The position numbers and the translations under genes are program-made. A stretch of DNA of 53,989 bases. Origin: Lachnospiraceae bacterium (GTDB taxonomy: Bacteria > Bacillota > Clostridia > Lachnospirales > Lachnospiraceae). The notes under the pieces were generated by a model, which was given only the letters and a program-made list of their open reading frames with translations, was not told the DNA's origin and did not search any database. The stretch covers positions 1-53,989 of the forward strand of contig JAHAYJ010000088.1 of assembly GCA_018384375.1 (NCBI GenBank), written 5' to 3'. Positions 4,214 to 41,044 of the stretch are shown here, one piece after another (position 1 is the first letter of the stretch; each line of letters opens with the position of its first letter).

Positions 4214-4497
4214 GACTTCAATGGATAAAGACCGTGATGGGAAAGAGTATTTATTAAGTAAGGTTGCAGAGAGAAGGTGGTTGGTGAAAGCCTTTGCCGA
4301 GCTGATAAAGAAGCAGTCCCTGAGTCGTGACGATGAGAAAGCAGATTATTTCGCAATAGGTGTCATCGGGTTCTCCCGTTACAGAGAAGCGGTATGACAG
4401 TACCGGCAGAGTGCAGGTTTTTCCTGAATTTAGGTGGTAACACGGATAGTAGTATTCGCCCTAAGCTTTTGAAATCAAAGGCTTAGGTTTTTTTTAT
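4214..4497 (+). ncRNA. T-box riboswitch, alanine type, upstream of alaA
   Basis: This leader senses uncharged tRNA and controls transcription of the aminotransferase gene. Stem I is recognisable: lower stem GGGA (4239-4242) pairs with TCCC (4317-4320), AGTA at 4246-4249 faces GAA at 4310-4312 (loop E motif), and TTTAT pairs with ATAAA above it. The triplet after GAA is GCA (4313-4315) followed by G, which reads as an alanine specifier. The conserved T-box AGGTGGTAACACGG is at 4432-4445 and its TGGT fits an ACCA tRNA end. A terminator with stem CCTAAGC / GCTTAGG and a T tract lies at 4459-4497. The specifier matches the predicted alanine function of the next gene. Confidence 0.9.
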
Positions 4498-4524: not shown

Positions 4525-5748
4525 ATGAAGACGTATTTAAAATCTAAGAAACTGGATTCGGTGTGCTATGATATTCGAGGGCCGGTTATGGATGAGGCAC
4601 AGCGCATGACAGCTGAGGGAATCAACATTTTAAAGCTGAATATCGGTAACCCGGCACCGTTTGGCTTCCGGGCACCGCAGGCAATCGTAGATGCCATTTC
4701 GGGTAACCTTTTAAACACAGAAGGATATTGCGATTCCAAGGGACTCTTAAGTGCCCGGGAGGCTATCTTAGGTTATTGCAGGAAAAAGGGGATTCCCTGT
4801 GAGTCGGTGAATGATATTTATACGGGGAATGGTGTCAGCGAACTGATTACAATGTCGATGCAGGCTCTGCTGAATAATGGGGATGAGGTTCTGGTACCCT
4901 CACCGGATTATCCTTTGTGGACAGCTTCTGTCACACTGGCCGGTGGGACGGCGGTTCACTATCTATGCGATGAGAGCCAGGAATGGTATCCTGACATTGA
5001 GGATATGAGAAAAAAAATCACACCTAATACAAAGGGAATTGTGGTGATCAATCCGAATAACCCTACAGGGGCAGTTTATCCCAAAGAAATTCTGGAGCAG
5101 ATCGTGCAGCTTGCAAGAGAAAATGAATTAATTTTGTTTGCTGATGAAATTTATGATAGACTGGTTATGGATGGAGTAGAACACTATTCGCTGGCATCGC
5201 TGGCACCTGACTTGATGACACTCAGCTTTAACGGGTTATCCAAGTCCCATCTGATCTGCGGATATCGTTGCGGCTGGATGTGCATTTGCGGAAATAAGTC
5301 CCAGGCAAAGGACTACATAGAAGGATTAAATTTACTTTCATCCATGCGGCTCTGTTCAAATGTGCCTGCCCAGTCACTGATTCCTAAGGCTTTGGAGTGC
5401 ATTGACTTTACGGATGAGTTGCTGGTGCCCGGAGGAAGGGTTTATGAACAGAGAGAATGCATTTGCAAACAGCTTGAGACAATTCCGGGACTGTCCTTTG
5501 TACGTCCCAAGGCAGCATTTTATCTTTTCCCGAAACTGGATATTAAGAAGTTTTCCATTACAGATGACGAGCAGTTTGCTTATGATCTGTTGAGGGAGAA
5601 GCATATTCTCATTACGCATGGTGGCGGCTTTCATTGGGAGCAGCCTGACCATTTTAGAATCGTTTATCTGCCGGATTGCAGTGTACTGGAGGAGTCTGCT
5701 AAGAAAATAGGGGATTTCCTGGAGCATTATCAGCAAAATAACAGATAG
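4525..5748 (+). CDS. alaA: Alanine transaminase, AlaA type
   Basis: The protein is a class I/II PLP aminotransferase that interconverts pyruvate plus glutamate with alanine plus 2-oxoglutarate. It closely follows the AlaA (YfbQ) pattern of E. coli: LNIGNPAPFGF, GYCDSKGLLSAR, DIYTGNGVSELI, PSPDYPLWTA, HYLCDES, INPNNPTGAVYPKE, FADEIYDR and NGLSKSH with the PLP lysine at about residue 240. The 407-residue length is normal. An AAGGAGGG site precedes the ATG. Control by an alanine-specifier T-box independently supports a role in alanine synthesis. Where AlaA has SKTYRVAGFRQGW this protein reads SKSHLICGYRCGW, a modest change next to the active-site lysine. Confidence 0.92.
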   Translation: MKTYLKSKKLDSVCYDIRGPVMDEAQRMTAEGINILKLNIGNPAPFGFRAPQAIVDAISGNLLNTEGYCDSKGLLSAREAILGYCRKKGIPCESVNDIYTGNGVSELITMSMQALLNNGDEVLVPSPDYPLWTASVTLAGGTAVHYLCDESQEWYPDIEDMRKKITPNTKGIVVINPNNPTGAVYPKEILEQIVQLARENELILFADEIYDRLVMDGVEHYSLASLAPDLMTLSFNGLSKSHLICGYRCGWMCICGNKSQAKDYIEGLNLLSSMRLCSNVPAQSLIPKALECIDFTDELLVPGGRVYEQRECICKQLETIPGLSFVRPKAAFYLFPKLDIKKFSITDDEQFAYDLLREKHILITHGGGFHWEQPDHFRIVYLPDCSVLEESAKKIGDFLEHYQQNNR

Positions 5749-5765
5749 GGAAAGGAGACATTTTT

Positions 5766-5792
5766 ATGGGTACACCCGTCGTTTGTGCATAG
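5766..5792 (+). CDS. Leader peptide 1 (8 aa, MGTPVVCA)
   Basis: An 8-codon reading frame, ATG to TAG, sits behind a strong AAAGGAG site with 8-base spacing, 17 bases after the alaA stop. The peptide MGTPVVCA shares MGTP and the final Ala-stop (GCA TAG) with a second leader at 6303-6329. The stop codon lies inside an RNA hairpin, as in ribosome-controlled attenuators. The start sites, length, first four residues and end are conserved between the two copies while the middle three residues differ. It is almost certainly translated as a regulatory leader of the gene at 5884; the signal it senses is unknown. Confidence 0.7.
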   Translation: MGTPVVCA

Positions 5793-5860
5793 CAAAAGCT
5801 ATTGCATACATAAAATAATTGAATGATGCTATAGCTTTTGCTGATCCTGAAAAATAAAAA
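5788..5860 (+). ncRNA. Attenuator-like hairpin of leader 1
   Basis: The 5' arm 5791-5807 (AGCAAAAGCTATTGCAT), which begins inside the leader stop codon, pairs with 5826-5842 (ATGCTATAGCTTTTGCT) at 16 of 17 positions. The 5' arm can instead fold locally: GCATAGC (5787-5793) with GCTATTGC around AAAA. The two folds exclude each other, so a ribosome paused at the end of MGTPVVCA could choose between them. No T tract follows the long hairpin, and the ribosome site of the next gene is about 30 bases downstream and not in the stem, so the output (transcription or translation) is unclear. Confidence 0.6.
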
Positions 5861-5883
5861 GGAAGCAAATCAGGAGGGCAATC

Positions 5884-6159
5884 ATGAGCTATAGGAGCGC
5901 AGAAGAAATTCTGCCTCTTGAAATAATTGAATTGATACAGCAGTATGTAGATGGAGAAAATATTTATATTCCCAGAAAGAGCGAGAATAGAAAAACATGG
6001 GGAGAGGGCACGCAGTTCAAAGCGGAACTGACAGCCAGAAACCGGGAAATCTATCAGGGTTATCTTGAAGGAATGAAGATGGCAGAACTGGCCGATAAAT
6101 ATTTTTTATCTGAAAAGAGCATACAGCGCATCGTATATCAGGCAAGGAAAAGTGCCTGA
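5884..6159 (+). CDS. Mor/CD3324-type helix-turn-helix protein (91 aa)
   Basis: This short DNA-binding protein has the layout of the Mor transcription activator family, and I recall clostridial members named after C. difficile CD3324. The N-terminal dimerisation part reads LEIIELIQQYVDGENIYIPR followed by KTWGEGT, and the C-terminal helix-turn-helix reads MAELADKYFLSEKSIQRIV. Start choice is supported by AGGAGGG nine bases upstream. The gene is preceded by the leader peptide and hairpin at 5766-5842 and is followed by a terminator, so it can be expressed with alaA or under leader control. Targets are unknown; the family name is from memory. Confidence 0.75.
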   Translation: MSYRSAEEILPLEIIELIQQYVDGENIYIPRKSENRKTWGEGTQFKAELTARNREIYQGYLEGMKMAELADKYFLSEKSIQRIVYQARKSA

Positions 6160-6186
6160 TGATCAGAAAACTGAATAGAGTAGCGA

Positions 6187-6221
6187 AATGAGGAGAGATT
6201 ATTCTTTCCTCATTTTTATTT
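6187..6221 (+). terminator. Intrinsic terminator after the Mor/CD3324-type gene
   Basis: AATGAGGA pairs with TCCTCATT around a 15-base loop and is followed by TTTATTT. It lies 28 bases after the stop at 6159. Confidence 0.65.
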
Positions 6222-6302
6222 GTGAAGAAAACGCGAGGTTTCGGCAGAAGTAAGTTATCTGATAGAATGAATCCGGTGAGAAGAAAGAAGGAGGAAAGAG
6301 TT

Positions 6303-6329
6303 ATGGGCACACCCCACTTGATTGCATAG
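6303..6329 (+). CDS. Leader peptide 2 (8 aa, MGTPHLIA)
   Basis: This 8-codon frame, ATG to TAG, follows a strong AAGGAGG site with 8-base spacing. MGTPHLIA matches leader 1 in length, in MGTP and in the closing GCA TAG. The nucleotide match to leader 1 continues past the stop (GCATAGC-A-AGCTATTGC with one or two changes). The upstream unit is closed by a terminator, so this leader probably has its own promoter between 6222 and 6290, although I see no convincing -35/-10 pair. It precedes the DUF1062 gene at 6433 and is not part of it. Confidence 0.7.
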   Translation: MGTPHLIA

Positions 6330-6410
6330 CAGAGGCTATTGCAATTCGGAAAATACTGATTTGACAGCGTGAAAGCTTATGCTGTCTGTAATAGTCTTTG
6401 CATACCTGAA
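6324..6410 (+). ncRNA. Attenuator-like hairpin of leader 2
   Basis: The arm 6329-6343 (GCAGAGGCTATTGCA) pairs along all 15 positions with 6387-6401 (TGTAATAGTCTTTGC) if three G-U pairs are allowed. Compared with leader 1, bases in the stem differ while pairing is kept, which is covariation evidence for a real RNA structure. A second stem, GACAGC (6363-6368) with GCTGTC (6381-6386), stacks next to the 3' arm. A local alternative fold, TTGCATAGC with GCTATTGCAA around AGAG, uses the same 5' arm and contains the leader stop codon. Confidence 0.65.
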
Positions 6411-6432
6411 AATAAACGTAAGGAGATGCAAA

Positions 6433-7017
6433 ATGGACTATTGTAAGACAATTGAATACAGAATAACACCGACAAAGGCATATACGATTATCAGGAACTG
6501 TTCCGGCTGCGGAAGAAAGGAGCATTATGTCAGCACCGGAAATTTTCGTGTTAATGCAAATGGAAGACAGCTTGATGTGTGGTTAGTTTACCAGTGTGAG
6601 AAGTGTAAACATACCTATAACCTTCCGATTTATGAGAGAGTCAGTCCGGAGAAGATCGAAGATGCCCAATATCAGGCATTTCTTGGAAATGATGCAGATA
6701 CAGCACTTCAATTTGGAACGGATCGGAATTTGTTTCTGAAGAATCGGGCTGAGATTGATATAGAACGGTTAGAATGCACGATTGAGAAGCTAAATGACGA
6801 TTGTGCGAAGCATGAAGGCGTTGAGAATTCGGAAATACAGATTATCATTCATAACCCATATATGCTTCCGATCAGAACGGACAGACTGTTGCCGGAGATT
6901 TTGCAGATGAGCAGAAGTAAGATCAGACAATTGATTAAGGACGGCAGCATTCAATATTTTGGTTCAAATCTGGCTGAGCGTACGGAAATTAAGGTGTATT
7001 ATACTGATAAGTCATAA
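6433..7017 (+). CDS. DUF1062 family protein with zinc-ribbon-like Cys pairs
   Basis: The 194-residue protein matches DUF1062: RNCSGCGRKEHYVSTGNFRV, then NANGRQLDVWLVYQC and CEKCKHTYNLPIYERV, so two Cys pairs (CSGC and CEKC) probably bind zinc near residues 24-60. The C-terminal part, LLPEILQMSRSKIRQLIKDG, resembles an S4-like RNA-binding element, a cautious reading. An AAGGAG site fixes the start at 6433; a longer start at 6379 would lie inside the leader hairpin. Biochemical function is unknown. The leader peptide in front suggests expression linked to ribosome status, and a zinc-ribbon plus RNA-binding-like end would suit a translation-related protein, but this is inference. Confidence 0.8.
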   Translation: MDYCKTIEYRITPTKAYTIIRNCSGCGRKEHYVSTGNFRVNANGRQLDVWLVYQCEKCKHTYNLPIYERVSPEKIEDAQYQAFLGNDADTALQFGTDRNLFLKNRAEIDIERLECTIEKLNDDCAKHEGVENSEIQIIIHNPYMLPIRTDRLLPEILQMSRSKIRQLIKDGSIQYFGSNLAERTEIKVYYTDKS

Positions 7018-40800: not shown

Positions 40801-40816
40801 TTCAAAAAAATAGGAA

Positions 40817-41044
40817 AAGTTCTTCGGGGCAGGGTGAAATTCCCTACCGGCGGTACAGTCCGCGACCTGTGCCTGCACTGGTATGATAGAAAGTGTAGGT
40901 ATGGCTGATTTGGTGAAATTCCAAAACCGACAGTAAAGTCTGGATGAGAGAAGAATGGCACAATACAAATACAGAAGCATATGTGATGTATGATGATGTG
41001 TAGTGCATTTTATGCCCCGGATGATAGATATCCGGGGCTTTTTG
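40817..41044 (+). ncRNA. FMN riboswitch (RFN element) with terminator
   Basis: The aptamer from TCTTCGGGGCAGGGTG at about 40820 to GATGAGAGAAGA at about 40954 contains the conserved parts: AGGGTGAAATTCCCTACCGG, GGTACAGTCCGCGACC, GCTGATTTGGTGAAATTCC and ACCGACAGTAAAGTCTGGAT. The P1 ends TCTTC and GAAGA pair. A terminator GCCCCGGAT / ATCCGGGGC with TTTTT lies at 41013-41044. Binding of FMN is expected to favour termination and shut off riboflavin uptake by the gene at 41101. Confidence 0.97.

Follow-up and report, generated by a model that had tools for sequence, protein, structure and literature searches.

Two leader peptides ahead of a CD3324 gene and a DUF1062 gene

In this study we analysed a 53,989-nucleotide (nt) Lachnospiraceae contig, hereafter called the window, and two loci within about 5752-7017 in which a short leader frame precedes a larger gene. 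Leader A encodes MGTPVVCA* (asterisk, stop codon) and its end lies 91 nt from a gene of the CD3324/Mor family, and leader B encodes MGTPHLIA* and ends 103 nt ahead of a DUF1062 gene. The copies are separated by 537 bp, and the spacing from GGAG(G) to ATG is 8 nt in both. A sequence-only reading of this DNA had described two 8-codon frames with Shine-Dalgarno (SD) sites, stop codons and hairpins, all of which are present at the positions it gave. We propose that each leader is probably a translational attenuator that reads the position of a ribosome and is tuned to a stall early in the frame rather than one at the stop codon. The features are as follows (RBS, ribosome-binding site; HTH, helix-turn-helix).

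5752-5757, + strand: SD AAGGAG of leader A, from the sequence
5766-5792, + strand: leader peptide A, MGTPVVCA and stop TAG (ATGGGTACACCCGTCGTTTGTGCATAG), from the sequence and kept in relatives
5784-5793, + strand: segment 1A (TGTGCATAGC), final leader codons and stop, from folding and covariation
5790-5809, + strand: segment 2A, partner of 1A (local hairpin) or of 3A (long stem)
5824-5849, + strand: segment 3A, partner of 2A (predicted ON state) or of the RBS and start region (predicted OFF state)
5870-5892, + strand: segment 4A, SD AGGAGG, AUG and codons 2-3 (ATGAGCTAT) of the CD3324 gene
5884-6159, + strand: CD3324-family, Mor-type small HTH protein of 91 amino acids (PF08765, NF040785)
6190-6221, + strand: terminator-like inverted repeat and T-rich run after the CD3324 gene, read directly by eye
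6223-6241, + strand: degenerate copy (GAAAACGCGAGGTTT) of the promoter element TTTaGAAAAATgTTTRAGGTRG, found by eye and missed by the search pattern used for the relatives
6263-6268, + strand: putative -10-like hexamer TAGAAT of the DUF1062 transcript, by eye, with spacing as in relatives
6288-6294, + strand: SD AAGGAGG of leader B, from the sequence
6303-6329, + strand: leader peptide B, MGTPHLIA and stop TAG (ATGGGCACACCCCACTTGATTGCATAG), from the sequence and relatives
6321-6330, + strand: segment 1B (ATTGCATAGC), from folding and covariation
6329-6345, + strand: segment 2B, from folding and covariation
6362-6386, + strand: extra stable hairpin in the 2:3 loop of B, an insert present in few relatives
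6387-6407, + strand: segment 3B, from folding and covariation
6420-6441, + strand: segment 4B, SD AAGGAG, AUG and codons 2-3 (ATGGACTAT) of the DUF1062 gene, GAC matching a C-to-U change in segment 3
6433-7017, + strand: DUF1062 protein of 194 amino acids, zinc-ribbon-like beta domain and C-terminal domain with weak S4 resemblance

Alternative stems are predicted to hide the downstream ribosome site

Relatives were compared in 80 named loci, the best of 233, in which 131 gene starts on the same strand were examined (80 DUF1062, 51 CD3324). An accepted leader was found at 126 of them; 122 of these leaders have 8 codons and all 126 end in TAG, figures that are partly built in, like those for Ala, as the leader finder rewarded TAG, Ala and a length of 27 nt. 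At the other five starts there was no leader or a poor one (DUF1062 in L233, L265 and L296; CD3324 in L278 and L295). The 8-codon frames with SD sites in the window and in relatives correspond to the translated short leader of ribosome-mediated translational attenuators.

In our model, segment 1 would comprise the end of the 8-codon leader (..GCA UAG), segment 2 the stretch behind the stop, segment 3 a stretch further downstream and segment 4 the RBS, the AUG and codons 2-3 of the gene. Selection for an attenuator-like RNA structure had been proposed from the two copies in the window, and the alternative stems hold on 24 leaders compared with 500 shuffles. The long stem 2:3 is paired in 88.9% of cells with 6 of its 14 pairs changed on both sides, and all five covariation measures exceed all 500 shuffles. 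Pairing in the local hairpin 1:2 amounts to 93.3%, with two-sided changes in 17 cells; three of the five measures exceed all shuffles there and the other two were reached by 37 and 117 of 500, with the qualification that related rows make the shuffles optimistic. Sliding the stem partner lowered the pairing to 22-53%.

The pairings 3:4 and 1:4, which hide the downstream ribosome site and were absent from the sequence-only reading, are the functional core. For 3:4, 114 leaders were given to the test and segment 3 was not located in 12; five pairs are formed in 102 of the 102 others. Segment 3 was located by TAG[CT] and by its complementarity to segment 2, a requirement that constrains the left side of the stem but not the gene side. 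One of these pairs varies with both sides changing (CG 93, TA 7, TG 2; shuffle maximum 98/102) and is constant within the CD3324 subset. A sixth possible pair was unsupported (47/102, shuffle mean 45). In the window, codon 2 of the DUF1062 gene is GAC and not AGC, alongside a C-to-U change in segment 3. Moreover, 13 of 14 DUF1062 proteins whose gene has its own leader start with M-x-Y, as against 0 of 13 whose gene lacks one; this start is no test for CD3324, because CD3324 begins so in 18/18. As judged from sequence and folding only, the leaders have the mutually exclusive stems of translational attenuators, one of which sequesters the RBS.

A ribosome at codon 4 is predicted to open the site

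We modelled a ribosome at each of codons 1-9 by masking the leader and computed how much energy it takes to open the downstream ribosome site (-11 to +9), using 114 of the 126 leaders (8 codons, at most 120 nt to the gene) and controls with a shuffled middle; the values describe equilibrium folding only, with an assumed ribosome footprint. The mean cost for DUF1062 leaders was 8.7 kcal/mol for the free RNA, 4.3 with codon 4 in the P site and 10.5 with the stop in the A site, and the corresponding values for CD3324 leaders were 11.4, 7.3 and 14.1 kcal/mol. In the controls the cost fell gently (DUF1062 6.9 to 4.9, CD3324 8.3 to 7.4) and did not rise past codon 4. The minimum was at codon 4 in 80 of the 114 leaders vs 8/114 controls, and codon 4 undercut the free as well as the stop-bound state by 2 kcal/mol or more in 83/114 vs 3/114 controls. 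A base-by-base scan in a minimum-energy version placed the best masked edge at 22-26 nt (medians) with a rise from 27; masked base 27 is the last base of the stop codon, and masking there opens stem 2:3. Leader B of the window costs 8.3 kcal/mol free, 2.7 at codon 4 and 13.2 at the stop, and leader A has a broad minimum over codons 3-6. The SD of CD3324 leaders is largely paired in every state, while their AUG opens to 0.91 at codon 4, compared with 0.36 in the free RNA and 0.64 with the ribosome at the stop. Taken by itself, the AUG contrast is larger than 0.2 in 73/114 real vs 75/228 control cases. Stalling at the stop codon, which had been put forward as one possible trigger, is not borne out, as a modelled ribosome at the stop closes the downstream site and codon 4 is the open position.

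Selection on the leader peptide was also observed for the DUF1062 type. Of 57 distinct DUF1062 leaders, 56 have Pro at codon 4, and each of the four Pro codons is used (CCC 28, CCT 16, CCA 10, CCG 2); this conservation at the amino-acid level across codons argues that the leader is translated. Codon 2 is Thr in 40/57 with all four Thr codons used, and codon 3 is Thr in 48/57, encoded by ACA in 47 of these. The 34 distinct CD3324 leaders have Arg or Lys at codon 3 in 28 cases and Tyr at codon 4 in 20, invariably encoded by TAT, so that selection on peptide and on RNA is not separable there. The selection of Pro4 at the very codon singled out by the RNA model is the strongest single convergence.

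The leader is not confined to the window

The pattern ATGGGNACNCC-N10-GCNTAG (start A or G) has exactly 2 matches in the own genome, both of them these leaders, and its reversed control has 0. The bare 11-mer ATGGGNACNCC is not improbable in the window (at least 2 copies in 6/100 shuffles); the case beyond chance rests on relatives. The exact pattern occurs in 7/98 genomes searched, and 6/37 same-genus genomes, the own included, have exactly two copies each, 502-613 bp apart. Besides, a lone MGTPTYLA-stop match outside the family (L096, G093:C202) lacks both a ribosome site and a hairpin of this kind downstream and was regarded as chance. Other members of the genus carry different peptides, for example MKRYVMSA and MTTPFYFA in G029. 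Usual DUF1062 leaders resemble MTTPVYFA and usual CD3324 leaders MKRYVMFA, and the types are exchangeable, as MKRYVMFA stands before DUF1062 in L262 and MGTP, MTTP or LETP types stand before CD3324 in L225, L227 and L268. The twin MGTPxxxA copies of the earlier description are real in the window and in these six genomes, but MGTP is a local variant and not the general peptide.

A covariance model (R1) was built from the leader and segments 2 and 3 of 24 sequences, excluding two leaders with long inserts and a truncated one. This search, which the sequence-only reading had proposed, revealed a conserved element well beyond the window, with matches in 54/397 family and 21/391 class genomes at E 0.01. 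At E 0.001 it matched 2/299 phylum genomes, namely the own genome and one outside the class, where the next gene reads like CD3324. In a viral collection 88 stretches fitted a loose pattern and 19 of them had an upstream purine-rich word, but none had a CAAAGGCTA-like hairpin, and they were ascribed to chance.

Rescoring 100 loci with the model gave 144 matches, of which 103 were read; L205 and L223 (G269, G356) were not among the rescored loci. Not among the 103 were 31 weaker matches overlapping a stronger one on the other strand, 2 more on the opposite strand and 8 duplicates of places contained in two loci. The next gene was CD3324 in 65 cases, DUF1062 in 29, another frame in 5 and no frame in 4. 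The 9 exceptional matches score only 30-39 bits, a range shared by some true CD3324 matches, and were treated as chance or decayed copies. Since 94/103 matches precede CD3324 or DUF1062, the element belongs to this gene pair and is not a portable attenuator as had been supposed. Leaders among the 94 have 8 codons in 65 cases, 9 codons in 16 and 6-16 codons in the other 13, possibly including some misread frames.

The two downstream genes had been called unrelated, which is correct for their sequences, but by co-occurrence they form a functional pair: among 200 family genomes, CD3324 is present in 24/27 DUF1062-bearing genomes vs 33/173 others (Fisher p 1.9e-12). DUF1062 occurs in 27/200 of these genomes, and a leader of the same kind lies directly upstream of 14/27 genes. 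Grouping of the neighbours in the 80 named loci by single linkage gave no other gene group as constant as CD3324; a generic ABC-type ATPase was found in 24 loci and two further groups in 11 each, one of which is an S-adenosylmethionine (SAM) methyltransferase gene (Methyltransf_25). This gene lies between CD3324 and DUF1062, behind the promoter element, in L264, L265, L270, L280 and L293. A third, weaker leader, VKRYDMFA (TTTGCATAG, 38 bits), was seen in L188 (G406:C21, 2867-2949) and L264 (6421-6503), located 3' of CD3324 and DUF1062 on one contig and ahead of a 437-amino-acid frame, and is possibly a decayed copy. In L116 and L119-L123 DUF1062 lies directly behind CD3324 without an own leader, in a frame of only 98-108 amino acids in which the C-terminal half is missing.

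The CD3324 regulator, its putative target promoter and DUF1062

The CD3324 protein of the window matches Mor (PF08765, E 3.6e-9, 37 bits, gathering cut-off 24.9) and NCBIfam NF040785 (116 bits, cut-off 65). The promoter element was found before 28/35 DUF1062 leaders located 350-800 bp past a CD3324 start, before 11/41 other DUF1062 leaders and before 0/48 CD3324 leaders, with shuffle means of 0.5-0.8; its pattern was rewritten after looking at the sequences and is post hoc (an earlier pattern gave 1/76, shuffles 1.8), the shuffles and the 48 CD3324 leaders serving as controls. Behind 40/51 CD3324 genes the element and a -10 lie within 220 nt, a count without shuffle control. By hand count its centre is near -41, if the TA..T hexamer is the -10. 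According to PMC4390567, the binding element of Mor has its centre at -43.5 and takes the place of the -35. The conserved promoter element behind CD3324 suggests that CD3324 may activate the DUF1062 promoter.

The exact 17-base pattern of the element matched 3/200 genomes; one match is a DUF1062 promoter and one lies inside a coding frame. With 2 mismatches allowed there were 19 sites in 15/18 DUF1062-bearing genomes, and 12 of them are DUF1062 promoters by sequence. The 7 other sites are no more than the 8 matches of a reversed-pattern control, and a wider regulon was rejected; only L324, before a methyltransferase-like frame, looks promoter-like. Furthermore, no CD3324 match at E 1e-5 was found among 50,697 phage records. 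Models of defence systems gave one CD3324 match at E 0.032 and no DUF1062 match, and in Foldseek neither protein matched at E 0.001.

The DUF1062 protein of the window matches Pfam PF06353 (E 2e-36, 126 bits, gathering cut-off 23), as do 49/49 homologs. Its AlphaFold2 model has a pLDDT of 91.8, and its C-terminal part gave only weak matches to the S4 RNA-binding domain (PF01479). On plasmids, 57 records of DUF1062 relatives, all below 60% identity, come mainly from Streptomyces (26/57) and rhizobia; the best rows, with about 33% identity, are Rhizobium, Agrobacterium and Shinella plasmids. A full-text literature search, with most subscription papers outside its scope, found DUF1062 named only in gene tables without description, and no description of CD3324 or of five leader peptides.

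Searching Rfam 15, no family reached its gathering score at either leader. Upstream of leader A, a T-box leader (4225-4466, 118 bits) precedes an aminotransferase gene (4525-5748); leader A starts 17 nt past this gene, and CD3324 may therefore be co-transcribed with it here. A flavin mononucleotide (FMN) riboswitch is located at 40816-40959 (114 bits) in the window.

Discussion

We consider it probable that both leaders couple the position of a ribosome to the start of the following gene. With no ribosome on the leader, either 1:2 plus 3:4 or 2:3 plus 1:4 would hide the AUG. A ribosome at the stop would cover segments 1 and 2 and leave 3:4 to hide the AUG. A pause with about codon 4 in the P site would cover segment 1 and keep segment 2 free, 2:3 would form and segment 4 would be released. 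Such a pause may come from a stressed ribosome, most likely an inhibitor-bound one, on the short chain M-T/G-T-P (or M-K/R-R-Y). The earlier suggestion of a response to a ribosome-targeting compound is plausible. CD3324, as an activator of the Mor type, might then switch on the DUF1062 promoter, so that one signal would gate the regulator and subsequently its target again. The weakest step is the possible role of DUF1062 as a ribosome-associated protective or rescue factor. Taken together, we tentatively suggest a WhiB7-like translation-stress response of Clostridia, that is, a double-locked feed-forward circuit with a codon-4 switch on both the CD3324 activator and DUF1062, which might yield a new zinc-ribbon/S4 ribosome-protection or rescue factor; we hold this wider picture to be possible rather than probable.

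Other explanations have to be weighed against the codon-4 attenuator. A sensor of slow termination would turn the gene on when a ribosome is held at UAG by a shortage of release factor or by a drug that traps it. UAG ends all accepted leaders and sits inside a pairing segment, and Ala8 is invariant among the distinct 8-codon leaders, both figures being partly built in by the finder. However, hardly any state makes the RBS costlier to open on average than a ribosome at the stop (10.5-14.5 kcal/mol), RNA pairing accounts for GCA UAG and a few relatives have a TAA stop; we regard slow termination as quite unlikely. Amino-acid attenuation would mean that ribosomes short of charged Pro or Thr tRNA stall within codons 2-4 of the DUF1062 leader. 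This would fit the conservation of Pro4 and Thr2 at the amino-acid level, and a stall with Pro4 in the A site and codon 3 in the P site also leaves the RBS fairly easy to open (5.4 vs 4.3 kcal/mol). It is nevertheless unlikely, as CD3324 leaders are mostly K/R-R-Y and yet the leader types are exchangeable (L262; L225, L227, L268), no run of regulatory codons is present and neither of the two products appears to be biosynthetic. Control by transcription attenuation or by Rho instead of at initiation also has little probability: Rho can act on untranslated leaders, and in toiL the two layers are coupled (PMC12121999), but no U-run was read by eye behind the long stems, where no terminator scan was made, and the alternative pairing partner is the RBS with the first codons. 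Two similar copies 537 bp apart could also be a mobile hairpin that carries a short frame by accident. This we judge very improbable, given that the pattern occurs exactly twice in the own genome, that 94/103 matches are followed by the same two gene families and that a matched base change extends into coding sequence.

A narrower form of the codon-4 attenuator is a phenicol/oxazolidinone-type sensor, in which a drug in the A site of the peptidyl-transferase centre would arrest the ribosome after M-T/G-T-P with penultimate Thr. Its probability is contained in that of the general proposal and is not to be added to it. With Pro4 in the P site the penultimate residue is that at position 3, and 48/57 DUF1062 leaders have Thr there. 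According to PMC8987054, chloramphenicol and linezolid arrest best with penultimate Ala and less with Ser/Thr; Thr before Pro would thus be compatible with such a context but is no proof of it. Ala, the best residue, is found at position 3 in 1/57 only, CD3324 leaders have Arg or Lys there in 28/34, and the conserved Pro4 is not demanded by that rule. We view this special form as rather doubtful. The context rules of other inhibitors, as given in passages of a review (PMC13410324), showed no clear match to the leaders.

If the proposed codon-4 attenuator is true, many Clostridia, mostly Lachnospiraceae among the named loci, have an unrecognised sensor of ribosome trouble. Its outputs would be an uncharacterised regulator and the uncharacterised DUF1062 protein, each of which would be given a candidate function, and RNA structure would dictate the first codons of two unrelated proteins. 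Moreover, a leader with a narrow predicted stall position could be used to find which compounds or stresses are reported.

In erm and cat attenuators a ribosome stalled on a short leader shifts alternative stems and frees a hidden ribosome site. Short leader, stalled ribosome and alternative stems are likewise common to our leaders and the attenuators of erm, cat, vmlR, vga(A) and cplR, the upstream open reading frames (uORFs) of the latter three being described in PMC12121999. According to that text, drugs likely stall ribosomes at the start codons of vmlR, vga(A) and cplR, whereas the predicted optimum here is codon 4. Unlike in this group, each gene of the pair has its own switch, the pairing runs through gene codons 2-3, and CD3324 and DUF1062 are not known resistance proteins. 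In the toiL uORF of the E. coli topAI-yjhQ operon, occupancy by a stalled ribosome also frees a downstream ribosome site, and toiL senses multiple drugs (same source). However, toiL pairs with the RBS along its length and a stall anywhere works, whereas our model predicts a narrow position with earlier and later ones closed. With regard to the circuit, whiB7/wblC of Actinobacteria is similar, since a uORF before a small transcription factor senses several classes of ribosome-targeting antibiotics (PMC12121999); in contrast, CD3324 is a Mor-type HTH protein with a presumed activator role, and the target gene has a second copy of the sensor. CD3324 shares the Mor Pfam family with Mor of phage Mu, and its putative target resembles the Mu promoter Pm in an element near -41 and a -10 without a normal -35, but a pair of 5-bp inverted repeats as in Pm was not seen by eye. 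Compared with the known attenuators, sequence comparison and folding model indicate that the new traits would be the reading of one narrow ribosome position, the gating of two consecutive genes and the recruitment of gene codons 2-3.
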